Shown piece by piece: positions 19,379 through 55,129 of a DNA stretch of 64,000 nucleotides. The translations under genes were made by a program, and so were the position numbers. The notes beneath the pieces are model-generated. The model ran no database searches and had not been told where the DNA came from. It saw nothing but the letters and a program-made list of their open reading frames with translations. The stretch is taken from NCBI RefSeq assembly GCF_964355755.1, contig NC_092673.1:26975001-27039000 (forward strand). The letters run 5' to 3'. This stretch comes from Antedon mediterranea (lineage: Eukaryota > Echinodermata > Crinoidea > Comatulida > Antedonidae). Positions within the stretch are counted from its first letter, which is position 1, and each line of letters starts with the position of its first letter.

Positions 19379-19379
19379 C

Positions 19380-21852: not shown

Positions 21853-22058
21853 ATGTTTCGTGTTCTTTATGTGGTCTTTATTTTTCTTATTTTTCAAAGT
21901 GATATTTTAATCAAAAGTGCTGAACTGCCTGATCCAACAGAAGTACTATGGCCAACAATATTTATACCAATACTTGTCCGTAATAAAGCACACACTTTGC
22001 CAACGTTTTTCGGGTGTTTAGAAAACCAAGACTATCCGAAGGATCGAATTTCGATATG
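21853..22058 (+). CDS. COLGALT: COLGALT exon 1 (start codon, signal peptide)
   Basis: Starts with ATG after a C/G-rich leader and encodes a strongly hydrophobic N-terminus (Phe/Leu/Ile/Val-rich through about residue 20, then KSAELPDP), which reads as a cleavable signal peptide for ER entry. The remainder matches the family's opening strand and the helix with HTLPTFFG. It ends in a GTAAGT donor at phase 2: the split codon TG|G restores the conserved Trp before IRSDHN. Confidence 0.9.
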
Positions 22059-28000: not shown

Positions 28001-31000
28001 ACATAGCTTACCTGGATAAACCGAAAGAAACATTAAACACCCCTATCAGACAATGAAACAAAAAATGTTAAATTCCAACTTCTTGAAGTTAAAATTGTGT
28101 TTTGTTAACCTTTCTACTCAATCACGTTTTGTTGTGAAACGCATGTTGTTATGAAACCAGTACACGGTTAGTGTCACTTTGCAGCATCACCAACAAATTA
28201 ACAAATAGTACAGTCACACTCACAAGGACATAAACAAAAACAAACAATAGATCATCATTTAAATTCACATGCAATGAATATATTTACCGGTGTCATAGAC
28301 ATTCAGAAAAAAAAAACCTTTCTATTTCTTCCATTCAAAATATGTTACACTTCCGTTGGCGATGTTAAAAAGGAACCAGACTCTATTTTTATTTATCACG
28401 TTAAACAGGACAACGATTTTGCATTTGATAGTGGCTAAGATATTTGGCACGTAATGTTGTTTTAAAGGAACAATACAAACAAATATTTCACATTTGATTG
28501 TACTATCTTTGTTCGATTGATTCAATATTAGAAAGTGAAAATAATTCATATCCTTCCTACAACCGGCACTCATCATTATTTGAATGGGATCATTAGAAAT
28601 GTGTCTAGAATTACGGAACTAAAAATGAAAGGAGTACATTTTTGCGGTTTAAAAAAAGGTCATTCATAATAATAATGTTTCCAAATAAGGACATCGAAAG
28701 TTTTTACTTTGGTCTTTTGTCAAATTAATTTGGATTATGTAATGTATTATTTTTTATTTAATACATTTATTCCTTTTGTCATGTCATGCATGTATTTCTA
28801 TAATAAAGATGTTATCAATATTTTGACATAGTGTACATCTTAATATTAAAGTCAGATTTGTGTTCATCAATAACGTAGACCTGAGGAACTTTAAGAGGCC
28901 CTCCAACGCTGGAGGCCTTGGGCACTTTTAGCCTTTTTTGACATATTTTAATGCCTTTTTTCCTCTGGCCACTGCTCAGAGTGGCACTCATAAGCTCCGG
29001 GGTCCCTGGGTTTAACCAGTAAGCGCTCATAGCTGTTACGCCACTAGTGTTCATTGGCTTTTTTCCTCTGACCACTGCTCAGTGGCACTCATAAGCTCCG
29101 GGGTCCCTGGGTTTAGCAAGTGAGCGCTCATAGCTCTTACGCCACTAGTGTTCATTGGCTTTTTTCCTCTGGGCACTGCTCAAGGGCCCTCATAAGCTCC
29201 GGGGTCCCTGGGTTTAGCCAGTGAGCGCTCATAGCTGTTACGCCGCTAGTGTTCATTGGCTTTTTTCCTCTGGCCACTGCTCAAGGGCCCTCATAAGCTC
29301 CGTGGTCCCTGGGTTTAGCCAGTGAGCGCTCATAGCTGTTACGCCACTAGTGTTCATTGGCTTTTTTCCTCCAGACACTGCTCAAGGGACTCATAAGCTC
29401 CAGGGCCCTTGGGTTTAGCCAGTAAGCGCTCATAGCTGTTACGCCACTAGTGTTCATTTGTTCGTTGTTGTTTCTTCTTAGGATAAGAAGTGATCACAAT
29501 GAAGATAATTCAACTGAGATGTTAAAAGAATGGGTCTCAAGAGCTCAGCATCTATACCATGTAGTAGATTATAAATACGATGACAGTGTTAGTAAGTATC
29601 AAGATGAGGCGGGACCATTTGATTGGCCGGAGGAAAGGTTCACACATATTATAAACCTCAGGCAGGCCGCACTTGAGGAGGCTAGGAGACAGTGGGCCCA
29701 ATATATGTTTGTAAGTATGGATAATGAATGTTTATAAGTTAAATAGGCAAGTCAGGCTTTCAACAAATGAAATGATTCTCCCAATTCAACTTATATGCAT
29801 TATTAAAGGACGTTGATCCTTTCATTAAAAACTCATCTATTTAAGTTATCTTTCGACTAATTTCTCTCTGTATATTTTTGTTTTGATGTAAAGCGCATTG
29901 GGGCTTTTAGCATAATGCGCTCTATCAAGCCTGATTTATTATTATTATTATTTGGTTTCATTTTTTCAAACTTTATTTGTAGCAGAAGAACTGAATCTTC
30001 CTATACCCATTCCCACTATAGTATTTATACACCTTACTTAATAGCTTACTTAATTACTCAATCAGTCATGTGACATAAGTAAGTACTGATAATGACATGA
30101 AAACGTGAGAAATAAACTATGTCAATTGCCAATAGAAGGTTATTACACTTTTGTTGTCAATATATAATAAAATATAAAATATTTTTAAAGGTTGCGTTTG
30201 GTTTGATAAAAACCTCAATTGTATTATTATAGGATCCGTGAACTTTCTATACCCAATCCTACTAATTTTACTCAATCAGTCACATTATGGTACTGTACTG
30301 GTAATATATCGTGACTAATAACTATATACTATACATTGCCAATGAAAGGTTCATTACACTTTTCTTGTCATTCTAGAATTCACCACAAACACCACTGATT
30401 ACCTCATCCAATTCCACTCTCCTTTCCTATTGTACACTCAGTACCAAAATTCACATGGTTATACTGGTTAGCATAATACACTATTATAACACTTAAATAA
30501 ATTCCTGTCAGTTGACTAGACAATTATGGGTTACATGGCATGCAATAGTATGCACTATTGAACAGTCGTTTAATAGTACTTTTTTTCGGGTTCGAAAAAA
30601 CAAATCTTATGGCGTTTTCTTATATTTTTTTTATACTATTGCTTTAGAAATACAACAGCGCCACCTATTAAGTACTTCCGCCGCGGATATTCAGTGTGAT
30701 GACTGATATCGACGGAAGAACATTTTTGGAGAGATATGTGTACTAATTTAAACCAAAAAAAGCATGTATATTAGCTTTAAATCGTTTTTTGTGATTTTGA
30801 TTATTTAATGGGAACATCTCTACAAGATGTGGAATTGTTGGGAAAAACAGAATTAGCCTAGATGAGTTCCAGTTGCCTGTTGAAGTTTCATAATGGTATC
30901 GCTGCCTTTCTTGCCCTACACAGCCAATATTCCTCCACTTTCAGTGGCAGATCCAGGATTTTGAAAGTAGGGCCTTGAAATTAAAAAATGAACTTTTCTT

Positions 31001-34000
31001 ATAAATGAGTCTTAATCTTTTGCATTCAACTCAAATGATGTTTAATCTCAATTTTAGGACTTGCACACACCTCCGCCTAATACTGCACATACTTTAATAA
31101 AAGGAGTGCTGTATTCAATGCCTACTCAAAATTTCCGTAACTTGCACACCCTCTACCACTGCCCTTTCCTACATATTGCAATTAACTGTATTCAACCTAA
31201 TCAAATGTCTATCAGGACTCTCGTACACCAATTGCCGCTTTCCATATCATGTGTAGCATTGGTAACGGTAATGAAGTAGTGTATTTCAACTTTAATGTTT
31301 CAATTCCAGTAGTCGCACACATCCAAACTCTTATTTCAAACATGTTATATTATCAGTTACCAAATCCAACCACACACAGATAATCAAATTTCCTGTGCAT
31401 TTATTGAAGGTGATTTCTGTAGGTTGATATTTTGTGACCTAACTTTAGATATATATAACCTTGAAACTATACTTCCTTTACTAAATAATATAGAAATTAT
31501 GGAAGATTAGTACAGTGTATAATGTATAGTATCAGCAGTTGGTAAAGTATGTTTATTGCCAATACAGCAGACCGCCAAAGACTCCCGATAATTGCTGGAG
31601 ATTTTGATATTTTATGATACGATACCTGATAAAGGTGCAATCTTTCACAATTTGTTTTGGATACTACATAAAAGCATCCCTATATTACATAGATTTACCA
31701 TTTGCATACCTAGTGCATTGACACACTTTGGTAACAAATGGCAAACAATCAAATGCATTTTCAACTTTTTAACAAACTCACATTTTTCGTATTCAATTGA
31801 GACTTTTAGTTACCGTTGAGTACACTTTTTCCGTTGAATACTTATTTAACAGAGTATTTTGAGCGTTGAGATTGTTCTTACCGTTGTCAATGTTTTCTAA
31901 TCAAATGAATACGACAGTTATATGCATGGCACATAGCATGCAATGCTTGGGAAGTGCCTGCCATGTTTAATATAGATGTTTTTGAGATTTTTTGTAATAG
32001 CATAATCTATGTTTTGGATGTATTTAAAAACAATTATAGCACCCTCTATGGTTTGGCCACACTTTATTAAGTAAAATTTTCGGGAACTCTGATATATTCT
32101 TTATTTTACTAAAGAAAGATTGAGTATGTCGGAAGGGAGTCATCACTATTGTCAGCAAACTTTTTTTTTCATTACACGTAACTAGACAATGCCTCATATG
32201 TTTTTAGTGTAGACAGAATACATTGCTTGAAAGGTAGCAATTATAAATCCGTAGACCACACAAAATAGTTATTTTTTTATGATGAGAATTTAAGTTGAGT
32301 TTTGCAAAGAACTTTTTTTCAAGGAAATACTGTAGTGATGAATTTCAGATGTATATAATCCTATCTCTGAAATAGAATGTTAATTCTCTTTACATAATCC
32401 TATATCTATAAGCTCTGCTACTTAACTGTATTTAGTTATATTAGTAATAATTCCCTGGAAAATTGACCCAAAAAAAAGTCATTGTTTGCTTCATACATTA
32501 GGATCTAATTTTAATCCCTTTAATAGTGGTTGTTCTACTTCAATAGAAAACCACATAATATGTGGTTTTCTATTGCAGTTCAGAACCCAATATAGTGTCT
32601 GTTAAACTCCCCTTCCCTACATTTTTTAGATCTAATTTAAGATCACAAACTATATTTAATGTAAAAAAATAATACTATATGACCCTATTGCGATAACTTT
32701 CTTCGTCATTAAACGGTTAAAAATGTGAAAAATAAGTCGATTCTAATAATTATAGAGACCCGCTATAAATCTCAAAATGCATTGCAAGCGGATTGATATT
32801 TTTGTTTTTCTTCTGTAATTCACTCACTTTTCGATCGATTGTGAGGCCAAAACAAATGGAAGACTCCTAACTTTTCAGCGAAAATATCGGGTTTTCCCCA
32901 ATTTGTATCAGCGGAGTTTGGCAAAAATATAAAGACAATTAATGCAGCAACTATACAACATCAGGCTAGGTACAGTATATAGCCAGCGTACGATGTTCGT
33001 ACGTTACTGATGTTTACCAGCTAGGCCTACAAAACTAAGCCTAGCTAGGCTAGGCCTAAAGACCGTCCACGATAGGTCATTCGCCGCAAGCTACTTAGGT
33101 AGTGCATTGTTTCTCACTTTTTATCATAATTTACCATAAAACGTACATTTATAACAAGGAATGACCTGGTTAACTGTTTTAAAAGTAATATATATGTATT
33201 ATTTTTACAAAACGTCACAAATTGTAGGGAAGGGGTCTTTAAATAGAGGTTGGCTGTAATGTTAAAATATATAGTTTCCCTGTCAATTTCACAGTGTCCC
33301 AGGATTCTGCCTATACAGTATAAAGTTTGATCTTAATAAGATTGTTAATAAATTGTGGAATGATATTAACTACAGTAGAACTTTTGGGCACCTCTATTCA
33401 GGGGACACCTATATTACAAAGACACTCGGTTGAGTCCCAAAGGTGTCCCCTTAATAGAGGCGTTCTACTGTACAATTAACAATGCTTTATTCAAGAATTC
33501 TACAAATATCTAGGTTTCCCTTATCCCACATGCATGCTTTTCTGCTGTTGAAGTTCTCTGTGGTATTTTCCCTATTTTCAAGTTGTTTCTTCCTCTAGTT
33601 ATAATAGCCTTCTTCCCATCCCTAATTGGGTAATTGTTCTCTGAATATTCAAATAGTCCCTAAAATACTGCTTAAAGGGAAAACTATCATTCTGACTACT
33701 CTTCTTAGAGAAACGAAAATGAAACTAGAATCGTGTATCATACAAGAGGCTTAATACTGACAGATAAACTAAAAAATCTATCTGCCTATCAAACAGCGAA
33801 AATCAGAAAAGTTGGTTTTTCAATTTTGTATGTTCTTATTTTTTAATTTCAGGCAATAGATGCAGACAATTTCTTAGAAAATAAAGAAACGTTGAAGATT
33901 CTCGTTAGCGCTAAAAAGCCTATGATTGCGCCAATGCTGGAATCAACGACTATGTACTCAAACTTCTGGGCAGGAACTACAGAACATGTAAGTATTGTTT

Positions 34001-37000: not shown

Positions 37001-40000
37001 TATTGACAAAAAAAAACATGATCTGGAAAAAAAGTTGTGTTTTAAAAAAGATATTTTGATTTTTTAAAAGATGACCTAAATTTACTTCTTCTATTTACTT
37101 CATTTTTTTCAATTTTAACTCATTTCATTTTTAACTCATTTCATTTTTAACTCATTTCATTTACGCATCGCAGTTAGCAGAGCACTTGTTTACGGAAGAC
37201 AAGAAAAAAAAAATGACATAATTATCCTTGTACAGAAATTATTGTGTTCCTTCCTGTGAAACTAGTTTACTGCCCTCTAGTGGCCAATTTTTCCAAAAGA
37301 TTCCTGTTTTATTAAAGTCAGAGGGATTGAATTAAACACCTGCCTGTGATACAATAGAAGTATACGGACTGAAAGCAGAGTCCTCAGTGGCATAACAAGG
37401 GGGGGGGGGGGGGTTTAGGACTCCTAAGGGACCCACCAACGCTGGGTAGTTGCATTGGGCTTGGCCCCAGGGTTAGCAAACAAGCACTCATAACATAATC
37501 CTCAACTTGCTATACAATAATTTATTTCAGTAGTCATTGATAAAAAATGTCCCTAGTCCCTAGTCAGTCATTCTGCTGCGCATTTGCAAATGTTTCTGAG
37601 CGTGTGCATAATGATTTGCTAACTTTTGTAAAGATTTAAGATCACTACTATATACAACTATCCTTCACTAACTTTTTCATAATCTTGTGCCCTCCCCACT
37701 ACCTATCTATGCACACCTGGTATTGCTTTGGGCTTGGCATATATCCTATAAAAAGAATATAAAATTCGAACCAACAGAATGCTGTAAATCTTTATAAACT
37801 TAGGCCGGCTTTTTCTCCCTCCCAGTGTGTAATCATGCAGGGACACTATTGTTCACAAAGGCTTTGATCCTACTGTATAAGCCTGGGGCAGTCCTTCCTT
37901 GTTGTAGCCAGATTAAAAGGATATGAAAATACCTTTCTATTGTGAATGTGTAATTGATTTCCATGTGCAGTGGAGCACAGTTATCCAGCTAGGTCAGTTG
38001 TATTCAATTTACTTGAGAATCTTGCAGATATTTATTCAATCAAACTTATATAGTAATTTTTTAAACAATATATCAATATTAAATACAAATAACATTTAAA
38101 ACTTTGTACCGTAAAGGCGTTATGGAAGATTCATACAGTTTTTTTAACACAGAATTTAGAATTATTCCACCAAGGTTGAACCTTAATTGACAACCAAACA
38201 GCCTTGGTATACCATGGTTTTATGCCACCCACCACTCCAGCATGCTTTTACCATATTTACAGTAAGGCACATCCATATGCCGATAACATTTATCAACTTG
38301 TTTTTAGGATCATAAGTTAATGTTTATGTTTGCACATATTTTTTTTTCATAACCAAATATTTTAACAAGCTGTGTATCTTTAATCAAGCCTAAATGCATA
38401 CAGTTTAAACAAAAATAAACTTGTGTTTATCTTCAACATGCTTGATAATTCCATGATAATTCCTCACACTCAAAATAACAATTGTAATTGGTTAATACTG
38501 GTTGAATTACTTGCTATGAATAAATGCTGCAGTACTAGACAGCCACGACAAAATATTGTTCAAGGAAGAATGTACTAGGCTATACCATGTATGACAAAGT
38601 ATACAGTAATCCCAGGGGGCAGTGACAGGACAGCTATGAGCACCCAGGTGCCCTGTAACTTATGAGGGCCCTGAGCAGTGCCAAGAGGAAAAAACAGGCA
38701 TTAAAATATGTCGAAAAAGGCTAAAAAATACCCAAGGCCTCCAGCATTGGAGGGCCTCAGGCCTCTACGTTATGCCACTGCCAGGGGGCCTGTCTGAAAT
38801 TAAGATAAACATTATATTTTGCTTGTTTTTTTAAAATAAAGTTATTAACCTGTTCTCATCTCTTTTCACTCATTTCTTCTAAAACTTTTTTAAAAGACAC
38901 CTAGTTCTTCCAAACTTTTTTAAAAACACACTCGGTTCTTCCAAACATTGTTTTAAAACACACTCAGTTCTTCCGAAACTCTTTTTAAGACACCTAGTTC
39001 TTCCAAAACTTTTTTTTAAGATACTCAGTTCTTCCAAAGATTTTTTTAAAAGAACACTCAGTTCTTCCAAAACTTTTTAAAGACACTCAGTTCTTCCAAA
39101 CCTTTTTAAAGACAGTCAGTTCCTCCAAAAATTTTTAAAGACACCCAGTTCTTCCAAAACTTTTTTTAACTCATCCAGTTCTTCCAAAACATTGTTTAAC
39201 ACGCCCAGTTCTTCCAAAACTCTTTTTAACACACTCAGTTCTTCCAAAACTCTTTTTAACACACTCAGTTCTTCCAAAACTCTTTTTAACACACTCAGTT
39301 CTTCCAAAACTCTTTTTAACACACTCAGTTCTTCCAAAACTTTTTTTAAAACACACTCAGTTCTTCCAAAACATTTTTTAAACACACACAGTTCTTCCAA
39401 AACTTTTTTAAAACACACTCAGTTCTTCCAAAACTTTTTTAAAACACACTCAGTTCTTCCAAAACATTTTTTAAACACACCCAGTTCTTCCAAAACATTG
39501 TTTAACACACCCAGTTCTTCCAAAACATTTTTTAACACTCTCAGTTCTTTCAAGACTTTTTATTAACATACTCAATTCTTCCAAAGATTTTTTGATAAGA
39601 AAGAAAGTGAAAATATTTGTTTCATACCGCACACTTCCTGCTGTGTATGTTGCTCTAAATGATTCCATGTATTCTGTATAAACTGCCGACTAAAGCATTA
39701 TTTTGAAAATTACGAACATCCGGTAGTTTTGGATTGGATCCTGAAGTAGATATCATATTGATAATTGTTTAGCAAGCAAACACAAAAACTTGGCTCAAAT
39801 CCCATCATTTTTTCCATTCATGCCGAGTTAAAAATGCAGCTGATCCCTATGAATTTAATACAGGAATAGTTTACTGGTTTCTACAGGGGCGGATTGCTAT
39901 AAGCGGTCTATAACCGGTCTTAGCACTTAGCCGGCTATAATTCGTGACGTAGCAAGTAGTCTTACATTATAGACCATTGCTATACCGCGGTCTAACCTGT

Positions 40001-43000: not shown

Positions 43001-46000
43001 TAACAATTTGTTAAACTAGAGGGTGAGCTCGCTTCGCTCGCTCCCCCTCTAGGAAGTGTAGACGATGGTTCTCGGAATGATAATGTTCTCCTTATACATT
43101 TTCTGTCGGTTACCATTATTGAAAATGCTTGACATTCGTAAAACTAAACTACTTTGTTTCACAGTGTTTTAGATGATTAAAAACATTTTAAAGTATAGTT
43201 TTTATTGTTTGGTAGGGCCCTTTGGGGAGGCGGAGGTCATTTGAGGGAGGTGCTTATTCGAGGGATATATGTTAAATTTTTTAGTTCTAATAATATGGTA
43301 ACATTTATAATCAAATGAAATCCTCTCATAGATATGAAAAGTGGTAAAAAAGAATAACAAATGCTTGGTAAATTGCAGATAACAGTGCGGTGAATTCTAC
43401 TACAAATAGTATAATTGTGTTATTATAAATATGTGGATGGACGTTTATTAGATAGTTGGGTTGTGGGGTGGGGGGGGGGGGTTTATTATTCAAAGTGATG
43501 TTTTATTGGAGAGGCGTTTATTCAAATGAATACCATCCTAATAATTATTAATACATTATTTAATTTAATCATCTTTTGAAACTAACTGCCGTGACAGAGT
43601 GGGCCCAAGAAAGAAGACATTACGGCTTGCAACATGGGCAGACATCTCGGTCCTAACGGGACACAGGAAGATAGCCTACAGTTATTCCTGCAAGCTTACT
43701 CAATAAAACTCAGCTATCGGGATTTCACTCGAAAAATGTCTTATCAAATCTCCCTATGTAATTTTATAATACTATTCCCCACAATATATTCTGATTCTTT
43801 ATGGCGTATATTTAATTTGATCTTTATTAATTTGCAGTATAATTCCTATTATTTAACTACTGTACCTTCACACACGTGTGGTATGTTTTAAAATAAACAA
43901 AAAACTGAAATGGCTATGATAAATGGCCAATTTTTTTTTCGTCTTCCAAAGGGACACTGTATTGATTGATGGAAAGTGCCTGTTTCCAGTCACCTTTAGG
44001 GTCAAATCTATTATTTTAACTGCTCCCTTGTGTATAAAAGAGAGGAAATATTTGAAACAAAGTTGAACTTATCTTAAACCCGGAAATTACTTTGACCGGG
44101 AAGAATTGAAATTGAGAGGAAAATCCAATGTTGAAATCATAAATGTTGTTAAAAAACTCTTTATAATATCTTCCTAAGATATAAATATGGAACAATAGCG
44201 TCGGCGTGCACACTAATGTTATCAAATCTACGTTTCGCGGTACATATCGGATAGATAAGGTAGGTATCCAAGGCGGAGATTTGTAGAGAAGTTTTTGCAT
44301 TGTGCTCGCCTATGTCAGAATTAACCATAATTTATATATAGATACATTGTGCATTGACTTTAAAATACTGTACAAAATGGCAATCCCATTTCTGATGGCA
44401 ATCCTGTTTTTGATGGCAATACCATATCTGATGGCAATCCTATTTCTGATGGCAATCCTATTTCTGATGGCAATCCTATTTCTGATGGCAATCCTATATC
44501 TCATGGCAATCCTATATCTCATGGCAATCCTATTTCTGATGGCAATCCTATTTCTGATAGCAATCCTATTTCTGATTGCAATCCTATTTCTGATTGCAAT
44601 CCTATTTCTGATAGCAATCCTATTTCTGATTGCAATCCTATTCTTTTCAGGGATATTATAGAAGAACACCAGAATACTCTGAGATGTTAGAACGCAATAT
44701 ATCTGGCATAATCCAAGTTCCTATGATACACTCAACATATATGATTGACTTACAACTACAGGTGTCGTTACAATTACAGTATTCACCGCCACCAGAGTAC
44801 GAAGGCGATATTGACGACATGCTTATTTTTGCGTATTCTGCACGTAAAGCAAGTGAGTAGATTCTTATTTTATTTAATCACTTGTATAGTGCCGATAGTA
44901 TTTGGTCTGAAAAATACACTTTTGGCAAAAAATAACCACCCTAGTCGAATGAATAAAGAGGTGTTAAATTGATAATAATTAGATTATGCAATAAAAAAAT
45001 ATTTGTGAAAAATTTATGTTTAATTTAATCTTTAATAATAATTTCATTACAGAAAAAAATGCATTACATCGTTTGTTTTTTACAGAAATACCTATGTATA
45101 TAATGAATGCTGCGTTCTTTGGTAGTCTTTCTACCCCAGCTGGTGTCCAGAACACGTTAGAAGAAGATGAACAACAAATGATATTCCAACGAATCGAGGT
45201 CATGGGTTAGTATCGTTTTGATTCAACAATAATAGGGAGGTTTCGCAACCTTACGAATACGATAACGAAAACGGATACGTCATACATTTGTGAAACTTTT
45301 GAGCTGATCCCCATTTCATATTTGTAAAGCGTATTCGTGTTGACGAATATCACCAGTCATGTTCGTAACTACAAAACGAGTATAGTTTTTGATCAATTTT
45401 GCACATTTTGCATTTGAATCAGGAATGATTCATGATTATAATATAATTATAGATTTATTGAAAGTAATTTACTAAAGTAATTTACTAAAATGCCAAGTCA
45501 ATTTTGATAAATAGCAGTTTTTAAAGTCCTCACTCGCTTTGATGTTACGCTAGGCCTAGGCAGCCAAGCACCAAGCAACACGTCGTACCTGCGCTTCGCT
45601 CAAATTTACCGCAGTCATATTTTGGACGCGCCTCAATGTTTCGTTGCCATGCGAAACAGATTTGTTTATGGCTTAGGAAAACGAATACGTGTGCGTGACG
45701 TATCTGTTTTCGTTATCGTATTTGTAAGATTGCGAAACCTCTCTAATAAACTGTTTGATCTACCGTAGATAAAGAAATGTAATATAATATTGTTCTGGTG
45801 GTAGAACAAGTCTTGGCAGATAGTGCCTTAACTGGCGGTCAAGTGTGCAAATCTGGCTCATTTGCACAATTGCAATAATAAGAGTTTATTCCAGTGTACT
45901 GTACAAAATCTTTAACATATTTTTGTTTTTTATTTTTTTAGTCGAAAATGAGCCTATGCCATTGTCTGCGCATATCACTCTGCCTCCCAAACAGCTGTCT

Positions 46001-49000
46001 AAGTTTGGTGCAGATAAGATTTATATGATCAATTTAAAACGAAGACCAAAAAGAAGACAGCGAATGGTTCGATCGTTACATGAATTATCTTTAAATTATA
46101 CCATTTTCAATGCTGTGGATGGAAAGTAAGTGTAAATAAAAGAAAGATACAAAATGACATGCACTTTATTTTTATGTAAATTTATATTTTATTGAAGATT
46201 ATAATTAAATTGTATCAGTTTTTAGCTTTTTGTTGATTGTCCTTTTCATGTCATTGTCATTTTTTTTTTATAAATTAATATGGTGAATAAAAACAAAGGT
46301 GATACAAAAATTACATTAAGATTTGTGCCGCAAAATCATATCTTCCCATCATTCATTATCTGAGCATCCTCACAAGGCTTTCCACCATCTAAAACTCATT
46401 TACTTTCCGAATTATTCATATTATGTAGGTTAGTAAGAAGTGTTCATTTCTGGATGCCAGTAATTGCTTTCTAATGTCAATATTTTTTTATTGTAGACTG
46501 TTAACGGATGAAAAATTAAAAGAAATGGGAATTGATATGATGGAAGGCTATAAAGATCCCTTCCACGAGCGGATCCTAACTAAAGGAGAGATTGGATGCT
46601 TCCTGAGTCACTACAACATTTGGGTTGATGTAAGTGTATAGTCATTTTCAATAACGGATCCATTGGGTGTGCAGAATGGTTACTATCAACGCCGCAGTAA
46701 AAAAAAACTTATTGAATTTAGTGCCACCACACAGCCATTTGTTTTATCCTATATTTTGTGGAAAGGTACATTTGCCCAAAGAATTTTGAAAATAATGAAA
46801 TTGCTCCTTGAAAAAATTATTTACAGAGTTAATTTTACCAACTACCAATGTGTGAACAACCTGGACCTCAATGCAATGAAATATTTGGTAATATTCTTAG
46901 TAATTCTAAGTTACTGTACACCTCAAGATAGTTTGTTTGTTTTGTTCAATGGGTTCCTATGACATTTGTTTTTTATTAATTTGCCATGTATTGTTATCTA
47001 AAATATTATTGATAATGTTTTGGGGTGTTTTTTTCAGATGATTGAAAAAGGTTATGAGACAGTTATTGTATTAGAAGATGATGTTAGATTTGAAGCTTTT
47101 TTTACGATGAAGCTTAAAAAACTTTTAAATGAACCACAAAAGTTAGACATAGCATGGGAGTTAATGTAAGTGGCGAATAAATGTTATATTCATTGCACAA
47201 ATCATGATTTTGTATGTCGTAAGGGATATTGGACTAGCATGTGAGAGGCATGCAGTGGGACAGCCAGTCGACAAATCGTGTCAAATTTCGACTCGGAGAG
47301 GGCGCCCTACTTTTCTAATTTAGTTCAAAATTGCTAAATTTTAGGGTGTTGGAAAAACACAATATTTGTAAATTTAGCTGATTATCGGAAAAATATTGTT
47401 AGTGAAATAAATTCATAAATGGTTTTAATATATTGTCATGTAAAATTAAATGTATTTGAACAAAACGATAATCTGTAATTTAACGGCAAAATCAACCAAT
47501 GTCTTTTTTCCGAAATTGTACCCTAGAAAATCATTAAAATAAAATATTTAGAAAAATTGAACAGTCCTGAATTTAAAATCCCTGTTAGAAAAATTAATAA
47601 TCTACAGAATACGATATTAAGATACAAAATTCGGTGGTTGGGATGCAGCTCCGACTATTCAAACTAAAGGTACCACTATTTGTTCCATCGAAAACTAGCG
47701 AAACCGCCATATTGTAAACACATCGTCATCGTGTTTATGAATTTATTTATATCGAACGATATACGCGATGTTTATAATTGTCCGCGTAAAAGAATTCATA
47801 TAAATAAATACATTCCAATACAACGTATATTATTACTTGTTTATTTATCACAGTATACATTTTAGTTGAGGAATATTTATCATAACTATTATAATAGCTT
47901 TTATACGAGTCCGAGGCCTAGCCCTATTAGCGACCGATTGTTCCAGGGGCGGAAAGTCACTTAGTGACGTTGTGATCGGGCGCGTCGGGCCTAGCTAATA
48001 TTAATAATATGACCTGAAATAAGCGGCTAACAAGAACTGTTATATACTTGTGATGAACAAACAAGCAATTAGATTGAATAACAAATTATTTATTCATTTT
48101 TTTTGGGTAAAAACATGTACAAACTAGTACTGTATAATATAAATTATAATAATAGTAATATTAAACTAATACAGTATTAATAAAATATAAAATAGGCCTA
48201 ACAATAACATACAATAAATATTCAATTTTTAAGGTCTACCACATGACAATAACATAATTTACAGAGTATAGTGTAGTAGGTTTGCATTCAACATAAATAT
48301 TTGTATTGTAATTCATCTAAATCCTCTGCAACATACATATATATTTGTAATTCAACATTTTGTTTTAAATAATTAAATTATAGTTTGGGTATGACAATGT
48401 CGGTAGGTACCGGTGTCATCTTTGTATCCACTTCACTCTCAGTTTGAAGTCACAAAGACAAAGAACTCTGCATCATCAACGATTCCTGAAAGTGTCAGAA
48501 AAAATAATAAATATTATTTAAAAAAATGTTAATGTCTGGTTGTATATATAATTATAATATTATATGATGACATAAAAGTAAGGCAAATGGAAGCTGTATT
48601 TTATTAATTAAATTACACTTACAGTATTTACTATTATTTATTTATATAATCTAGGCCTACTAGCACTAGTAGTCTAGCTAGGCATCTATTGAGCCTAATA
48701 AATCAAATAATAAATGAAAAATAAAATAATAATATTAATACTGATTGAAAAAAAGTATTTTGTTGGGGGGGGGGATCAGCGATCAGATCACCAGGCTAGG
48801 CCGGCCAGGACCAATGATACTCGTAATCAGTACAACTTATAAACGACTATCGGATCAGCATCAACACAGTACAACACACGTCTCGCTATCGCCTATACTG
48901 ACACACGTGTCTCGCGTTGCCGAAACCACGCTCACAGCTAGAAAATGTACCTACCTTTCGAGGCCTGAGAATACACCAACAAATTTTGAACAGGATAGAA

Positions 49001-52000
49001 ATATATCATACTCGATTAAACTAATATTATTCTTGATAAAACAATTGATTATAATGTTTTTAATTTGTTGGGATGCACCTCCGACTATTCAGAAAATGGA
49101 CAACAAAACAGTAGTCAAATCGTACCACATTTATAAATTTCACGAGTCCCGACTTCAGTCGCCGAATGTATTGTATTAGCTTCGGTTTCTTTGAAGGAAA
49201 CCGATTGGTTATTCAATAATACTTATTAGAAAATGCTTTTACCATAATAGGTAATGTTGGGCGGTTCTTAAATATTCATGAGAGCTTAAAATAAAACAGC
49301 ACTTATTTGCTAGGCGACGAAAAATCGTGGTTTCAGTTTTCAACGATAGGTGGCGCTTCAAAATCGTCAATGCGGAAGTAAGTCGATTTTACACGATTTA
49401 ACGGTCAAAACGCGAAGTGGCTTTCCCACTGGCATGGGTTCGAGACTTATCTGTGCTATATTGCTTGTATCCTTTGGCCAGTAATACTTTACTCTCATTG
49501 CATCGTCCTTCAGATGGAATGTAAAGCAGTTGATCTGAAAATGGACCCTCTCAAAGAACAATCTTGCACAGCACAAACTGCCATGCATGCAATCCACCAC
49601 AGAATATATGTAACTCTCCTCTCCCTCTTTTTGGTGTAGCTAATTATACATATACAGTTCAATACTTTTCACAGATCAGTGCTCACACCACTTACCGATT
49701 TCATCTATAAATACGACTATGCTTTTGTAACCCTTCAAATAAAAGACCTCTACAAATGTATCCCCTTAGGCTCTACTTGGCCCTGACACAAAACACAATA
49801 TAAGTAAAGTGCTTAATTATAATATTTTAAGAAACCAGTTTTAAATGAGCATCTAATGGTCACTTGTCTGAAACGTTTGTGAGAGTTAAAAACATTGTTT
49901 GATCATTTACGGTAACTAAATAAATCAACAAATATTTATTTCTTCCAGATACCTTGGACGTAAGATATTAAACCACCGGCTTGAATCATGGGTCAGTGGA
50001 TCGGACATGCTGCTATGGCCTAGCTATTCATATTGGACGTTAGGATATATTATTAACCAATCAGGTGCCAGGAAACTTGTGGAGCAGAATCCTTTAGGTA
50101 AAATGGTCCCTGTTGATGAATACTTACCCATTATGTTTGACCAACATCCGGAGTAAGTAATTAATTAATTTTAATTTTGTTTAATTTTAAGTTTTCTGAT
50201 AATATTTAAAGTTAAGGTCTCTGATACGGATTTTTTATTATTATTAAAAAATTGAAAATAGAGGTTGGCACATCATTAATTTTACTTGATGTAATAGGGT
50301 ACCTTAAGGGACCATGTCAAATTATTCTAATGCAGTTACTGCAGTAATTATTTTGTTTTCTCTTTAACCTGTTTATGCAATTATTTAGCAAGCTTTTTTT
50401 TAGGTAATCATACAACACACTGTTTTATTGCAGAGACTGTCTCATAAACTCACATTGAAATTAAATAAATTATACATTGCTGCAGTAAAAAAATGTAACT
50501 ACTGCAGCAGTAGGGTCTTTCACACATGTACCGGAACGGCGCATCCAACGTCAATGTTTCGTTTTCATGATGCTCCACGCGACTATGCACCAATCTATAT
50601 TTGCCCGCGTCGGACCGGAACCCAGCCGGAACAAGTTTGAAAGACCCTCTATAATCTAATCATTCAACTATCATTTTTCATTGTCCTAATCATCATCATT
50701 TAATAGTTGTAATCATTTGTATTCTTCATTCATCATTCATATTTATTATATTTTTTAATATTTTTATATTTTTTTTTACTTCACACACAGGGGCGGATCC
50801 AAGACACACCCCCCCCCCCCCTAAAATGTGCAAATTGTAATGCAAAAGATAGGAGATCAAATGAAGCTCAGCCCATCATTTCACCATTTTTAGGCCTTGC
50901 CCAAAATCCTGGATCCGCCACTGACGCATTTCAAGCATTCCTTAGTGCATGTAGTTTGTACTTTGCATATCTTGAATGTTGTTTTTTCACACTTTAACTT
51001 CAGCCATAATGTTTCATTCATTTCATTGACTCTTACGTATGCAAACCGCATGTGTACAATAAAGCTTGGGTCCCACTTGCGTTGCTCCTACAGTGGGAAC
51101 CAAGCTTAAGATCAAGAAACGTATGTTTTACATGCATAAATCAGTTTCTGACGAAATAACAAATATATTTAACTTTACATAATGTTAGTTATGATGAAAT
51201 CAAATAGATTATGAAAAGTGGAGTGTATTTTAGATCAATGGTATTAACATTGATGGGTTAGATAACTTTTAATTTGTCGCTTTTTTTATAGGTTAATTCA
51301 TATCGTACACATTTTATATACGTTTTTTACAGAGACTTATGGAAAGAACAATTTACTAATCGTAATCTTATAGCATACTCCGTCTCGCCTCTCATAATGT
51401 TTCCCACTCATTATGTCGGTGATAAAAATTACTTAAGCGACACGGAGGCCTCAAATATCTGGGATCACGTTTGCAACGAGGACGATAAAACACGCTGTCT
51501 AGCCAAGAAAGATCGACAAAACATTAGCAACCATGAATTGAGGCAAAGTGCTAATTTGAATTTACCCAGTGGACACTCCGAGTTATGACACACTTGGTGA
51601 GAAAAACCGATCATGTTATATGACAGTTCCATCTCATCTTAGCCTAGAAAATGCATCCACACAACCATATAGTAGTAGAGTTCTGAAGACCCTATATCTA
51701 TCCAGTTTCTATTGAAACAAATGGAATATCTTTAACCATCATCCTTGATTTCGATCCAAGTCGGCCCTAAACCGTCTCGGCCAAAGTCAAGTTTGCCCCA
51801 AGTCAAGTCGGCCCCAAGTCAACTCGGCCTCAAGTCAACTCGGCCTCAAGTCAACTCGGCCTCACGTCAACTCGGCCTCGGTCAACTCGGCCCCGTTAAA
51901 GTATGGAACGCAAAAAGTGCAAATGAAGGGGATTGATAAAATAATATTTCTTCACAATTTTTTAACTATAAATAATTCTGACTTTTAATGAATATTAATA

Positions 52001-54234
52001 TTTAGACAATAATATATTTAGGGAAAAAAAATAGGAATGATTTCACCAACTTTCCTTTATTTACGTTTAATAAAATTTCAAATTGCCTTCCTGCGCCTTT
52101 GGCAGCTTTTTCGATATCTACAACTGCTACGTGTTTTCACTGACCGGGGGATTCCCCTTTTTTAAAAACGCAAATCATGGACAAAAACGATATGTACGAT
52201 CATTTTTTCTATGGCTAAATGGTGGAACGTAGGCCTCCGTCTTCGATTTACTAAAATGCGGTACCTGCACGTGACGGTTTAGGGCCGACTTGACCTGCAC
52301 CCGTTTAGAATATCACTCTCTATAAAATAAAAAAAAATAAAAAACAGACTTTGAACCATTTAAACAGAAATAACTTTTTAATGAAATCTCAAAATCATAA
52401 ATTGTTTATATAATGGGATTATTATCATTATTTTATTTATTTTAAAATTTGCATACATGTGAATGATTGCATATTGAGTGCATGCTTCTGTTTGTACTAC
52501 TCTGTGTAGTTTATGCTTCCAATTATCACCTGTAATCTTATAATTAACTTTGAACTTTGACTTTTATGTAAATTTAGGTTGTAGTTCAGACCAGTCAAAG
52601 GTCAACAAGTCAAAGTTATATTAGATTATGGGCGATTTTTGTGAATTACTGTACAATACATTGTTTGCATTAACAAAACATTGCATGATTTATAATAAGT
52701 TACTTCATTCATTTTTAATAATGCATGTCATTATTAAATTATCATTCTTTGCTGGTTTATTGAATCATTTACAAATTTTTACTGAACGTTCAAAGGGCTT
52801 ATTAAACCGCATGCTTGCGCGCAGTAACACAATTTTGAAAATTGTTCATGTTTGCGGGTCCAACATCTTTGTGGAGAAGATAAAGACAGTTTAGTTGAAT
52901 AATAAAATATTGCATTAATATTACATGACAATGGTGATGTATGCTATTATCATCTACAATTGATGAGATACTGTAGTCCTTTGAGAAACCCCTATAAGGG
53001 GACACTTTCTTATGAAACAAATAAGGGACAATACATATGTTTCATTGCCAACGCTATAAAGAATACTTTTTGGTCCTAAAGATGTCCTATTAATAGTATT
53101 CCTCATCTTGTGTTTGCCAACTTTACTTTGATGAAATAATTTTTTTTGTCATTTAATAATAATATACAGTATTACCATATAATTATATTATATCCTAAAA
53201 TATGTTTTGTTTTGCCATATAATATAATATAGTACAGTATTAACATATAATAATATTTGATATATTTTAAGTATTGTTTTTATTTATACTGTACACTGAT
53301 CCTGATCTCTAACTTGTGTATATGTACCTTACTATTAGTTTTTTAAACAAATTTCCAATCCTAAACTTATTTTCCTTCTTACTAATTCAAAACTTGTGTG
53401 TCTGTCTGTTTGTCTGTCTGTGTGTCTGTATGTGTGTCTGTCTGTATCTCTGTCTCTGTATGTGTGTCTATCTGAATTTCTGTGTGTCTGTCTGTGTATA
53501 TGTTGGTCTGTCTATCTGTCTGTATTTCTGTCTGTCTGTCTGTCTGTCTGTCTGTGTGTCTACCTTACTTTTAAAGAAACTCTTTCAGCTTCTTCCTTTT
53601 ATCTTCTGCTTCACCTATCAGTCTGTCCTCAACTTGTGTATGTCTGGCTATTAACTATCTTGCTTTTAAATGAATTATCATAGCTTTTTCCATTTTTCCT
53701 CTGTCATAAGATAATGTCAACAAATACATATTGCATAAAAATAGATTTTTTAAATTTTAATTACATTTATAACAATATTAATGAGTGCAATTAATATAGA
53801 TACAGTAATAGTAATGTATTAGTGATTTTAATAGTATTTTTGCATAAAAATTATGAAAATAATATTTATTATAGTATTAGTAGCATTATGATGATAAAAC
53901 TATACTACTACAAATAAATTAACAATTCTGTTTTTACAATGTTTTTGTAATAACCAATTTAATGAAGTTGTTCCTTTTAATTTGCAGAGAAAGTTGGAAA
54001 GAGCACTTTTCACCTCGTGACCTCATAACCTACTCCGTCCAGCCACTACTAGTGTACCCAACTCACTACTACGGGGAACCTAACTATTTCAGCGACACGG
54101 AGGCGTCAAAGTTATGGGAGAGCGTCTGCGAAAATCACGATTCACTTGAATGCCTTGAATTGAAGAATAAACAAATGGGTGAGAAAAGTTTGGAGAAAGA
54201 AGGAACGGATCAACATATACATCCCGAGTTATGA
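21853..54234 (+). CDS. COLGALT: Procollagen galactosyltransferase (GLT25D/COLGALT family), ten coding exons with two alternative last exons
   Basis: The family transfers galactose from UDP-galactose onto hydroxylysine of collagen-like proteins in the endoplasmic reticulum. Joining 21853-22058, 29482-29710, 33853-33987, 44651-44852, 45086-45205, 45942-46125, 46497-46629, 47038-47165, 49949-50152 and either 51333-51588 or 53988-54234 gives an uninterrupted frame of 598 or 595 residues, close to the roughly 620 of vertebrate relatives. Seen directly: an N-terminal hydrophobic signal peptide (about residues 1-23), a first glycosyltransferase domain with D148-A-D150, a family 25 domain opening with KIYMINLKRR, an E416-D417-D418 motif, and PVDEYLP before the C-terminus. 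All introns have GT-AG ends with matching phases. The two C-termini end HSEL and HPEL, in the place where vertebrate COLGALT1 has an RDEL retrieval signal. Introns are transposon-rich, up to about 10.7 kb. Family assignment is firm; exact exon edges are inferred. Confidence 0.93.
25186..26009. mobile_element. 824-bp Harbinger-like element with degenerate Myb/SANT frame
   Basis: Imperfect terminal inverted repeats CCTGTTTCTGCTGC (left) and its complement (right), flanked by ATT on both sides (25183-25185 and 26010-26012) as a 3-bp target duplication. Many copies of the palindromic motif ATACCGTATT or its parts crowd both subterminal regions, as transposase-binding repeats do. The centre holds a broken Myb/SANT-like frame. 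PIF/Harbinger elements typically carry such a DNA-binding gene next to a DDE transposase; no transposase is present. Confidence 0.7.
25501..25799 (+). pseudogene. Frameshifted Myb/SANT-like DNA-binding domain remnant
   Basis: One frame gives MWSEDVTVLLNKF from 25501, stopping at 25554. A different frame from 25602 gives KDISKKIKQEYGIDLSPKQV, then KLKSLRKQYNIAK and CPHYDVF, ending in a stop at 25797-25799. The start Trp-Ser-Glu-Asp, the KQV-KLKSLRKQY helix and the terminal CP-YD resemble Myb/SANT-like proteins encoded by Harbinger transposons. The break between the halves indicates a non-functional relic. Confidence 0.6.
27842..27982. mobile_element. MITE of the AGCTCTGTCTACACTATC family, copy 1
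   Basis: TTAAAGCTCTGTTTACACTA at the left and GATAGTGTAGCTTTAA at the right, ending in TTAA on both sides. Related sequences begin at 34939 and 40460. Confidence 0.6.
28876..29457. repeat. 101-bp tandem amplification of a dispersed element, about five copies
   Basis: GCGCTCATAGCTGTTACGCC recurs every 100-101 bp. The first copy carries extra 5' sequence also found inverted at about 38615-38790, so the array is an amplified end of a dispersed TE. A related fragment lies near 37385-37480. It stops about 25 bp before exon 2 of COLGALT. Confidence 0.85.
29482..29710 (+). CDS. COLGALT: COLGALT exon 2
   Basis: 229 nt following a TTTCTTCTTAG acceptor. It completes Trp69 and encodes 76 residues beginning IRSDHNEDNS and ending RRQWAQYMF, the segment that in this family leads into the first DxD motif. 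It ends phase 0 at GTAAGT. A five-copy 101-bp tandem repeat stops only about 25 bp before the acceptor. Confidence 0.92.
32602..33242 (+). mobile_element. piggyBac-like TTAA element, copy 1
   Basis: 641 bp bounded by TTAA at each end and short inverted termini (ACTCCCCTTCCCTAC left, GTAGGGAAGGGGTCT right). No coding capacity is visible. It is nearly identical in inverted orientation to 35974-36605. TTAA targets are the hallmark of piggyBac-type transposition. Confidence 0.7.
33371..33473. mobile_element. MITE of the CCTCTATTCAGGGGACACC family
   Basis: ACAGTAGAAC at the left pairs with GTTCTACTGT at the right; CCTCTATT-AGGGGACACC motifs occur at both ends. Sibling copies or fragments lie at 34160-34315, 42418-42500, 52965-53105, 54445-54530 and 58035-58190. 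Confidence 0.55.
33853..33987 (+). CDS. COLGALT: COLGALT exon 3 (first DxD motif)
   Basis: 135 nt, phase 0 at both ends, flanked by TTTCAG and GTAAGT. It encodes 45 residues starting AIDADN; D148 and D150 form the DxD-type motif of the N-terminal glycosyltransferase domain. It continues to APMLE...YSNFW, a highly conserved block of the family. Confidence 0.93.
34160..34315. mobile_element. Diverged copy of the GGGGACACC MITE family
   Basis: Contains CTGAATAGGGG twice and AGTGTCCCTTTGATAGAGG, arranged around an AT-rich centre just after exon 3. Ends are approximate. Confidence 0.4.
34939..35060. mobile_element. MITE of the AGCTCTGTCTACACTATC family, copy 2
   Basis: AGCTCTGTCTACATTATCAA followed by TGTGCCCATATATGG and a TGATATGACATCATCATG block shared with the 40460 copy. 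The right end is degraded. Confidence 0.45.
35695..36990. mobile_element. TIR element with about 150-bp arms, interrupted by the piggyBac-like copy
   Basis: The left arm from AGATCTAAGGTGGCTGATTT to the CGCATGCG region near 35795 is matched in reverse by 36850-36990. The arms share GGTGGCTGATTTCC near the tips and ACGTACATGCGCATGCG inside. The right arm has an extra tandem copy of ATTAGGGCGTTATAACGCCG. No coding frame is seen; the central 632 bp is the nested element. Confidence 0.65.
35974..36605 (-). mobile_element. piggyBac-like TTAA element, copy 2, nested
   Basis: 632 bp, TTAA at 35974-35977 and 36602-36605, with termini AGACCCCTTCCCTGC and GTAGGGAAGGGGGCT. It aligns with 32602-33242 in reverse and sits inside the TIR element at 35695-36990, so it inserted later than its host. 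Confidence 0.7.
38615..38790 (-). mobile_element. Inverted single copy of the 28876-29457 element
   Basis: On the minus strand this shares the AGGCCCTCCAA-GCTGGAGGCC, GACATATTTTAATGCC and GCACTGCTCA blocks with the first unit of the array upstream of exon 2. Confidence 0.6.
38875..39595. repeat. 30-bp minisatellite, about 24 copies
   Basis: Unit CACTCAGTTCTTCCAAAACT plus a T tract and AA. Because 30 is a multiple of three, several frames on both strands are open over the array; they are not judged genes. Lies in intron 3 of COLGALT. Confidence 0.92.
39884..40421. mobile_element. 538-bp TIR element in COLGALT intron 3
   Basis: Terminal CAGGGGCGGATTGCTATAA pairs with TTATAGCAATCCGCCCCAG. Interior has several self-complementary GGTCTTA/TAAGACC blocks. 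No coding frame; flanking duplication is not clear. Confidence 0.6.
40460..40600. mobile_element. MITE of the AGCTCTGTCTACACTATC family, copy 3
   Basis: TAAGCTCTGTCTACACTATC at the left, then GTGATGTGCCCATATATGG. The ATATCACTACCATATTTGGG unit is repeated about three times near 40535-40590. Confidence 0.45.
43727..44200 (+). repeat. Dispersed repeat, copy 2
   Basis: Collinear with 3048-3372 but carries about 150 bp of extra central sequence. No coding frame is conserved between the two, so it is probably an old transposon. Confidence 0.75.
44375..44642. repeat. 18-bp minisatellite adjoining the exon 4 acceptor
   Basis: About 15 copies of a unit like ATGGCAATCCTATTTCTG, with ATTGCAATC variants toward the right. 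The array ends at 44642, within about 9 bp of exon 4. Period 18 leaves both strands open in frame. Confidence 0.92.
44651..44852 (+). CDS. COLGALT: COLGALT exon 4
   Basis: 202 nt starting GYYRRTPEYS and ending AYSARKA plus one base (phase 1), donor GTGAGT. It contains VPMIHSTYMIDL, typical of this family. The 18-bp minisatellite of intron 3 runs almost to the acceptor TTCTTTTCAG, so the polypyrimidine tract is effectively made by the last repeat unit. Confidence 0.92.
45086..45205 (+). CDS. COLGALT: COLGALT exon 5 (two possible in-frame acceptors)
   Basis: 120 nt encoding KIPMYIMNAAFFGSL through QRIEVM, ending phase 1 before GTTAGT. I chose the acceptor TTTTTTACAG because the resulting length fits the family. 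An upstream acceptor, TTTCATTACAG ending at 45052, would also be in frame and would add 11 residues without a stop. Confidence 0.85.
45235..45743. mobile_element. 509-bp TIR element filling most of COLGALT intron 5
   Basis: Ends GGGAGGTTTCGCAACCTTAC and its inverted partner pair over about 50 bp, through CGATAACGAAAACG. TAATA flanks both ends as a probable target duplication (45230-45234 and 45744-45748). The intron is only about 736 bp, so this insertion makes up most of it. Confidence 0.65.
45942..46125 (+). CDS. COLGALT: COLGALT exon 6 (start of the family 25 glycosyltransferase domain)
   Basis: 184 nt after a T-rich tract and TAG acceptor. The reading VENEPMPLS leads into KIYMINLKRRPKRRQRM, the characteristic start of the LPS-type family 25 glycosyltransferase domain. 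It closes with FNAVDGK split by a phase 2 GTAAGT donor. Confidence 0.93.
46497..46629 (+). CDS. COLGALT: COLGALT exon 7
   Basis: 133 nt: one base completes Lys359, then 44 codons from LLTDEKLKEMG to SHYNIWVD. The segment contains LTKGEIGCFLSHYNIW, the most diagnostic motif of family 25 glycosyltransferases. GTAAGT donor, phase 0. Confidence 0.95.
47038..47165 (+). CDS. COLGALT: COLGALT exon 8 (EDD motif)
   Basis: 128 nt after TTTTTTCAG. It encodes MIEKGYETVIVLEDDVRFE; E416-D417-D418 is the acidic metal/nucleotide-sugar motif of the second domain. It ends within Ile446 (phase 2) at GTAAGT. Confidence 0.94.
47166..49948 (+). other. COLGALT intron 8
   Basis: 2.8 kb. GTTGGGATGCAxCTCCGACT occurs at about 47638 and 49068 as a short direct repeat. 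A 77-codon minus-strand frame at 49367-49600 is unrecognised and not annotated as a gene. Confidence 0.6.
49949..50152 (+). CDS. COLGALT: COLGALT exon 9 (last exon common to both forms)
   Basis: 204 nt after TTTCTTCCAG, completing IYLGRK and continuing through SYSYWTLGYIIN, GARKLVEQNPL and PVDEYLPIMFDQHPE. It ends phase 2 at GTAAGT. Both downstream terminal exons supply the A needed to complete Glu514. Confidence 0.94.
50512..50649. mobile_element. 138-bp MITE in COLGALT intron 9
   Basis: GGGTCTTTCA at the left and TGAAAGACCC at the right, flanked by TA. The inner GTACCGGAAC and CGGACCGGAAC are further self-similar. A 70-residue open frame crossing it is not judged real. Confidence 0.5.
50788..50923. 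mobile_element. 136-bp MITE with CAGGGGCGGATCC termini
   Basis: Left CAGGGGCGGATCCAAG and right CCTGGATCCGCCACTG are imperfect inverted ends; a C homopolymer follows the left end. Resembles hAT-type MITE ends. Confidence 0.5.
51059..51108. mobile_element. Minimal 50-bp copy of the GTGGTTCCCACTAG MITE family
   Basis: AAAGCTTGGGTCCCACTTGCG and CAGTGGGAACCAAGCTTA face each other with only a few bases between them: an internally deleted copy in intron 9 of COLGALT. Confidence 0.5.
51333..51588 (+). CDS. COLGALT: COLGALT alternative terminal exon 10a
   Basis: Acceptor TTTTTTACAG, then 84 codons and TGA. It encodes DLWKEQFTNRNLIAYSV, PTHYVGDKNYLSDTEAS, a spacer, and a C-terminal HSEL. It is homologous over its first two thirds with the exon at 53988, including the PTHY-G-NY-SDTEAS core, and enters in the same phase. 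Position 2 of the tetrapeptide (Ser) departs from the usual ER-retrieval pattern, so retention strength is uncertain. The first downstream AATAAA is at 52069. Confidence 0.88.
51758..52291. mobile_element. 534-bp TIR element downstream of exon 10a
   Basis: Perfect 19-bp ends AAGTCGGCCCTAAACCGTC and complement. The left part, 51775-51895, carries tandem copies of a 14-16 bp unit around AACTCGGCCTCAAGTC. It lies between the two alternative terminal exons and contains the AATAAA at 52069. Confidence 0.6.
52069..52074 (+). terminator. Candidate polyadenylation signal for COLGALT form 10a
   Basis: First AATAAA after the stop at 51588, about 480 bp downstream and inside the 51758-52291 TIR element. 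If used, that transposon supplies the 3' end of the 10a transcript. Confidence 0.35.
53396..53568. repeat. TCTG microsatellite
   Basis: Long run of TCTG/TGTG units, imperfect, in intron 9 just upstream of alternative exon 10b. Cys- and Val-rich open frames here are repeat artefacts. Confidence 0.92.
53988..54234 (+). CDS. COLGALT: COLGALT alternative terminal exon 10b
   Basis: Acceptor TTTAATTTGCAG, then 81 codons and TGA. It encodes ESWKEHFSPRDLITYSV, PTHYYGEPNYFSDTEAS and ends HPEL. It is a diverged duplicate of 51333-51588 that enters from exon 9 in the same phase, so either exon gives a complete protein. Both copies keep open frames and conserved core residues, which argues against one being a decayed copy. 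Confidence 0.88.
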
Positions 54235-54934: not shown

Positions 54935-54940
54935 AATAAA
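54935..54940 (+). terminator. Candidate polyadenylation signal for COLGALT form 10b
   Basis: First AATAAA after the stop at 54234, with further copies at 54961 and 55311. Any of them could end the 10b transcript. Confidence 0.35.
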
Positions 54941-54981: not shown

Positions 54982-55129
54982 GAGGGCGGATCTAGCCGGT
55001 AGCGCTAAGACGCACTTCCCCCTTTTGACAGCTAAAATCAACTATGTTTTGATATATGTTTTAGACGGACACCTAACTATTAATGTTAAGAATGAATTAA
55101 TCATGTAGCGCTCCTAGATTCGCCCCTGT
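54982..55129. mobile_element. 148-bp MITE downstream of COLGALT
   Basis: GAGGGCGGATCTAGCCGGTAG at the left pairs imperfectly with CTAGATTCGCCCCTG at the right; AGCGCT is shared inside both ends. Confidence 0.45.

Follow-up and report, generated by a model that had tools for sequence, protein, structure and literature searches.

Homologous terminal exons in a COLGALT/CERCAM-family gene of the crinoid Antedon mediterranea may offer one enzyme two C-termini

Introduction

Does a single gene of the COLGALT/CERCAM family give its enzyme two alternative C-termini? The question is raised by a 64,000-nucleotide stretch of the genome of the crinoid Antedon mediterranea (NCBI RefSeq assembly GCF_964355755.1, contig NC_092673.1, forward-strand positions 26,975,001 to 27,039,000), here called the window, within which all positions are counted from its first letter. 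Using tblastn and splice signals, we identified a COLGALT/CERCAM-family gene of 10 exons (21853–54234, plus strand) whose terminal exon is present in two versions, A and B. An initial annotation, made from the sequence, had proposed that splicing and polyadenylation could switch the substrate-facing C-terminal part of a collagen galactosyltransferase between these two exons. Our analysis indicates that the exon duplication is real, old and probably functional. We consider it likely that the last exon was tandemly duplicated long ago, that both copies have been kept coding, and that exon 9 is joined to either A or B.

Results

Two homologous, splice-ready terminal exons

The two versions of the terminal exon lie ~2.4 kb apart.

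51333–51588, plus strand: terminal exon A, carrying the equivalent of the human uridine diphosphate (UDP) loop (Thr562–Glu580), Asp570, a CX7C pair, an N-glycosylation sequon at N577 and a final HSEL before the stop; acceptor ranked 1 of 162 AGs
53988–54234, plus strand: terminal exon B, carrying the UDP loop, Asp570, a CX7C pair and a final HPEL before the stop; acceptor ranked 3 of 162 AGs

Both exons begin with ag/A (the slash marks the splice boundary), complete the GAA codon of Glu514 after exon 9 in the same phase, and continue in an open frame to a TGA stop (51586–51588 in A, 54232–54234 in B). They have the motifs WKE.F, YSV.PL, PTHY.G..NY.SDTEAS and H.EL in common, with 36 invariant columns out of 84. 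At the DNA level, blastn aligned 139 bp of the two exons at 70.5% identity (E 8e-14), and in a whole-genome search the exon B protein matched exon A at E 8e-19; 36 of the 81 aligned protein positions are identical, so that more than half differ. Outside the exons, blastn gave no comparable alignment of the two neighbourhoods, the introns being unrelated and the next match consisting of 23-nt repeat arms. When the 354-Mb assembly was searched with the DNA of exon A and the protein encoded by exon B, no third copy of the exon was found among the scored candidates (in this and the other assembly searches, the best candidates alone were scored). Because A and B are homologous, their introns are unrelated and no further copies were found, the pair is best described as a diverged tandem exon duplication. 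The coordinates, phase, frames, common motifs and HSEL/HPEL ends given by the initial annotation were reproduced when sequence and alignment were re-checked, as was its spacing of 2.4 kb.

Among the findings that the initial annotation had named in advance as fatal to its proposal was the placement in tandem, by the assembly, of two haplotype versions of a single exon. This candidate explanation was rejected, since the intron sequences could not be aligned and over half of the aligned protein positions are different. We found no point in its favour, and the identity of 36 of 81 residues, the unrelated introns and a window free of N make it extremely improbable.

To rank the splice acceptors, a matrix was derived from the other 8 acceptors of the gene and applied to the 162 AGs between 50171 and 54301. 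Exon A scored 10.0 and exon B 8.9, compared with a leave-one-out range of 4.8–11.8 for the other 8 acceptors; the acceptor-like AG ranked second was a site at 50434. A and B are thus two homologous, splice-ready terminal exons.

Flanking the exon pair, the short stretches 50790–50919 and 54984–55128 are bounded by GGGCGGAT and a reverse-complement-like partner, and look like small transposon remnants.

The duplicated exon encodes the equivalent of the human UDP-stabilising loop

The C-terminal domain of human COLGALT1 is reported to be catalytically active, to bind metal through E435-D436-D437 and to stabilise UDP by means of a flexible loop, T562–E580, in which D570 contacts R351 when UDP binds (PMC13382579, a perspective article). 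In our alignment, each of the two terminal exons contains the whole of this loop (human, TGDDGYVSDTETSVVWNNE; A, VGDKNYLSDTEASNIW--D; B, YGEPNYFSDTEASKLW--E), which is two residues shorter in both A and B than in human, near the loop end. The residues D570, E572 and W577 (human numbering) are retained in both exons, while R351 and E435-D436-D437 are retained in the common part of the gene. Since the loop lies within the exon and D570 is present in both versions, exchanging the exons would alter active-site closure yet keep the key residue. The earlier suggestion that the exon holds a substrate-facing element is therefore borne out by the equivalent of Thr562–Glu580 (PMC13382579), and with Asp570 kept in both versions the proposed switch appears better motivated than was known when it was first put forward.

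The tails of the two exons also differ. Exon A has the additional N-glycosylation sequon at N577, and the isoelectric point of the tail is 6.3 in A versus 4.7 in B. Neither HSEL nor HPEL is one of the classical endoplasmic reticulum (ER) retrieval signals KDEL, HDEL and RDEL; other HxEL ends are able to act as such signals. Mutually exclusive exons have been reported to differ, more frequently than random, at positions close to sites of small-molecule binding or protein interaction (PMC7954323).

These features suggest how an old tandem duplication of the last coding exon in a gene of this family could work. Whichever of A and B is spliced to exon 9, the product would be a full-length ER enzyme whose two glycosyltransferase domains are identical as far as Glu514, and the exchange would affect the C-terminal 84 residues (A) or 81 residues (B), comprising the end of the GT25 domain, the UDP-closing loop and an ER-retrieval-like tail. 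We infer that such an exchange might tune donor and acceptor handling together with ER retention, with the key loop residue kept.

Age of the duplication and selective constraint

Within a conserved block of 43 codons, A and B have 26 identical residues, A and human 23, and B and human 24, so that the two exons are scarcely closer to each other than either is to human. The alignment also places a CX7C pair in both tails and none in human, which favours a duplication later than the divergence from the human lineage. Overall, the synonymous divergence (dS) between A and B amounts to 1.2, with values of 1.0 for the block and 1.5 for the tail; being near saturation, it indicates that the duplication is old yet does not allow it to be dated from A and B, and makes the ratios of non-synonymous to synonymous differences (pN/pS) rough. 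With this qualification, pN/pS was 0.42 in the 43-codon block (bootstrap 0.22–0.75) and 0.58 over all 81 codons (bootstrap 0.41–0.88), and the differences within the block fell on the three codon positions as 11/6/23. Averaged over both exons, the conserved block is evidently under purifying selection. The comparison of substitution rates that the initial annotation had called for thus bears out constraint in the block, and leaves it unclear in the tail (see below).

Open frames could also persist by chance. In a neutral-drift trial, one exon was allowed to drift to the observed identity of 0.60 in 5000 trials, with insertions and deletions outside the model. When all the divergence was placed on one exon, the frame stayed open in 151/5000 trials (A) and 102/5000 (B) with uniform bases, and in 29/5000 (A) and 23/5000 (B) with the base make-up of the window. 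When half the divergence was placed on it, the corresponding counts were 427/5000 (A) and 252/5000 (B) with uniform bases, and 171/5000 (A) and 105/5000 (B) with the window's base make-up.

These data bear on whether one of the two exons, A or B, is a silent relic or splicing noise, leaving the enzyme in practice with a single C-terminus. That is unlikely in our assessment, though far from negligible. At 60% nucleotide identity neither exon has lost its open frame, its acceptor, its loop residues or its C-terminal EL, pN/pS in the block is below 1, and a relic that had taken up all the divergence would have kept its frame in 0.5–3.0% of neutral trials. Four points pull the other way and count against the use of both exons. 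The tail has a pN/pS of 0.72 with a bootstrap interval (0.43–1.32) that includes 1, so that constraint there is not clear; pN/pS averages A and B, and so is no proof of present-day constraint on each; a relic bearing half the divergence keeps an open frame in 2.1–8.5% of neutral trials, which is not very rare; and RNA use of both exons, a functional difference and the mode of ending are deduced from genomic DNA. As a general prior for the use of both exons, we note that more than 20% of the splice isoforms detected in human proteomics swap homologous exons, all of them older than 460 million years (Abascal et al., PMC4465641).

How transcripts carrying exon A could end

If exon 9 is joined to either A or B, the A-containing transcripts must also end. 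Two features follow the stop of exon A.

51594–51602, plus strand: donor-like site TTG/GTGAGA, boundary 51596/51597, 8 nt past the stop of A
51749–52292, plus strand: high-copy repeat that has inverted arms of 23 nt and encloses a 16-bp tandem array, ~160 nt past the stop of A

The initial annotation had pointed to an AATAAA hexamer behind each exon. Both are present, the first after A at 52069 (481 nt past the stop) and the first after B at 54935 (701 nt past the stop), but they carry no weight as evidence, since an AATAAA occurs on the plus strand in 1004 of the 1260 1-kb stretches sampled, and the window has 118 of these hexamers on that strand. Moreover, the AATAAA at 52069 sits inside the repeat 51749–52292, for which 39 other near full-length copies with 89–94% identity were recovered among the best 40 of 555 candidates scored, and which on this evidence is young and high-copy. 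Between the stop of A and 51749, none of 12 common types of polyadenylation (poly(A)) hexamer was found. As it was argued, then, the polyadenylation switch is not supported.

It nevertheless has a place as one way in which both exons could be used. Separate poly(A) ends are a common mode for duplicated terminal exons, and classical alternative last exons, in which A-mRNAs are polyadenylated behind A and B-mRNAs behind B through competition between splicing and polyadenylation, are a sub-case of alternative use and not its opposite. We regard this arrangement as possible but on balance doubtful: an AATAAA does stand behind both exons, yet the hexamer is ubiquitous, all 12 types are missing ahead of the repeat, and the first AATAAA belongs to a repeat with closely similar copies.

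The donor-like site immediately after exon A suggests another mode, in which A could serve as an internal cassette whose stop lies near enough to the junction to escape nonsense-mediated decay. By human weights, the site scores 7.2 bits, compared with 4.6–10.5 for the gene's real donors; it is equalled or beaten by 54 of the 3574 plus-strand GT sites in the window, and a site this strong is present in 1.7% of stretches of 20 nt and in 4.6% of those of 55 nt. By contrast, a matrix built from the gene's own 9 donors rates 284 of the 3574 GT sites as good, which makes the site ordinary, and it was noticed post hoc, so that it suggests the cassette mode and does not demonstrate it. Cassette use of A, with one 3' end common to both kinds of transcript, would fit at least as well as the polyadenylation switch. 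We slightly prefer it to a separate poly(A) site, with A as a stop-bearing cassette exon that would be spliced on to B and use the same poly(A) site.

Gene model and family membership

The gene model was rebuilt by tblastn with human COLGALT1, followed by a check of splice sites and phase. Exons 1–9 are separated by GT-AG introns and form a single continuous frame.

21853–22058, plus strand: exon 1, hydrophobic signal-peptide-like start and onset of the N-terminal glycosyltransferase domain (tblastn to human COLGALT1; splice and phase check)
29482–29710, plus strand: exon 2 (tblastn, splice and phase)
33853–33987, plus strand: exon 3, carrying DADN (human D166xD168)
44651–44852, plus strand: exon 4 (tblastn, splice and phase)
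45086–45205, plus strand: exon 5 (tblastn, splice and phase)
45942–46125, plus strand: exon 6, onset of the GT25 domain, carrying the Arg that matches human R351
46497–46629, plus strand: exon 7, GT25 domain
47038–47165, plus strand: exon 8, GT25 domain, with the EDD metal site and A-x-E at human D461-x-D463
49949–50152, plus strand: exon 9, last common exon, 3' end CCG GA/gtaagt

The predicted isoforms have 598 (A) and 595 (B) residues. Isoform A contains PF13704 (residues 43–156) and PF01755 (residues 322–504), both over the Pfam cut-offs, and isoform B aligned over residues 32–579 with the solved human COLGALT1 chains 9evj, 9u7h and 8zgc (best E 1.7e-166). Over the part encoded by exons 1–9, the protein matches human COLGALT1 at 213 of the 513 aligned residues. 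By sequence, this two-domain protein, GT2-like plus GT25, belongs to the COLGALT/CERCAM family.

A full-protein search of the 354-Mb assembly gave 11 matches, all at the locus 21853–54234, and together with the exon B search it revealed no second COLGALT-family gene, downstream or elsewhere, among the scored candidates. Viral relatives were sought as an outgroup and none was confirmed. A weak GT25-like stretch on another contig (~3532–3717 of locus L003, minus strand) matched PF01755 at E 2.65 and has an internal stop; it was not recovered by the COLGALT protein search, and is at most a distant GT25-like scrap, possibly a decayed or an unrelated GT25.

Catalytic residues and the name of the enzyme

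The initial annotation had called the product a collagen galactosyltransferase. In human GLT25D1, D166-x-D168 is essential and mutation of D461-D463 inactivates the enzyme, and both the D461-D463 motif and RMQV (471–474) are altered in the inactive CEECAM1 (PMC3244457). The domain that holds D461-D463 is given as N-terminal in PMC13382579 and as C-terminal in PMC3244457, the latter being followed here. In the Antedon gene, the equivalent of D166-x-D168 is retained as D-A-D, the position of D461-x-D463 reads A-x-E and that of RMQV reads I-L-N-gap. Given the A-x-E, the word galactosyltransferase is to be understood as family membership, which stands, and not as proven activity.

The gene could accordingly be catalytically silent as a collagen galactosyltransferase, in the manner of CERCAM/CEECAM1, with exon choice altering binding or localisation and not catalysis. 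The replacement of the essential D461-x-D463 and of RMQV speaks for this, as do the changes that inactive CEECAM1 shows in these two regions (PMC3244457). Set against it are the finding of this gene as the sole one of its kind in the genome and the retention of the EDD site, R351, D166xD168 and D570 in both isoforms, and we judge a silent enzyme to be rather unlikely.

Other features of the window

Several repeats lie in and around the gene. An 18-bp tandem repeat of 14.8 copies (44377–44642, unit ATGGCAATCCTATTTCTG) ends 9 nt before the acceptor of exon 4, and repeat-derived sequence seems to supply the pyrimidine tract of that exon. In the intron upstream of exon 4, a 30-bp minisatellite of 23.8 copies (38867–39593) has several open frames on both strands. 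Upstream of the gene, a 674-aa open frame on the minus strand (17369–19393) contains seven tandem units of ~25 aa (NNNHEQPSGRHN[AV]SN..PSVFDLSM), with HEQP counted seven times, and a P-loop-like GGPFSGKY stretch; no Pfam match was obtained for it at E 0.01.

Discussion

Taken together, these data favour the alternative joining of exon 9 to two anciently duplicated terminal exons. If both are used, the gene would constitute a natural experiment on the loop to which UDP stabilisation has been ascribed in the human enzyme: the same enzyme body with two loop versions, in collagen hydroxylysine glycosylation, where the roles of loop and retention tail are still being worked out. Collagen glycosylation would then have been diversified by splicing instead of gene duplication. 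If one exon alone is used, the other is an ordinary relic. A further-reaching proposal is that splicing of a single gene stands in for the several genes used by vertebrates, inclusion or skipping of a stop-bearing cassette swapping loop and ER-retrieval tail of the only such enzyme to give two enzymes and a collagen glycosylation that differs between tissues; catalysis would then depend on EDD and the exchangeable loop, D461xD463 having been lost. We consider this speculative and doubtful.

The swapping of homologous exons and the duplication of terminal exons are already well established. A limited search of the open-licence literature, with no query aimed at COLGALT exon duplication, found no report of duplicated terminal exons in the COLGALT family. 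Among collagen-modifying ER enzymes, PLOD2/LH2 has an alternative exon 13A that is regulated by splicing, this being an internal added exon and not a duplicated terminal one. In KRAS, 4B persists as an untranslated part of the 4A mRNA, whose stop lies near the splice junction. As in the Antedon gene, the tandem homologous last exons 4A and 4B swap the C-terminus of one enzyme and leave its main domain intact (PMC9882654, a preprint); unlike KRAS, which swaps a membrane-targeting tail, the COLGALT-family exon also holds a catalytic nucleotide-sugar loop. Ancient homologous exons are likewise exchanged by splicing in tropomyosin and others, and the mutually exclusive families described in PMC4465641 (enigma, alpha-actinin, dynamin, plasma-membrane Ca-ATPase and tropomyosin) include no glycosyltransferases. 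A further comparison is with human COLGALT1, COLGALT2 and CERCAM of GT25, which have the same two-domain protein; in human COLGALT2, exons 7–12 of a total of 13 encode GT25 (PMC8999070). Vertebrate GT25 proteins have been diversified by paralogous genes (CEECAM1 and GLT25D1 being 55% identical, PMC3244457), whereas in Antedon one gene was found, and it is the end of that gene which has been duplicated.
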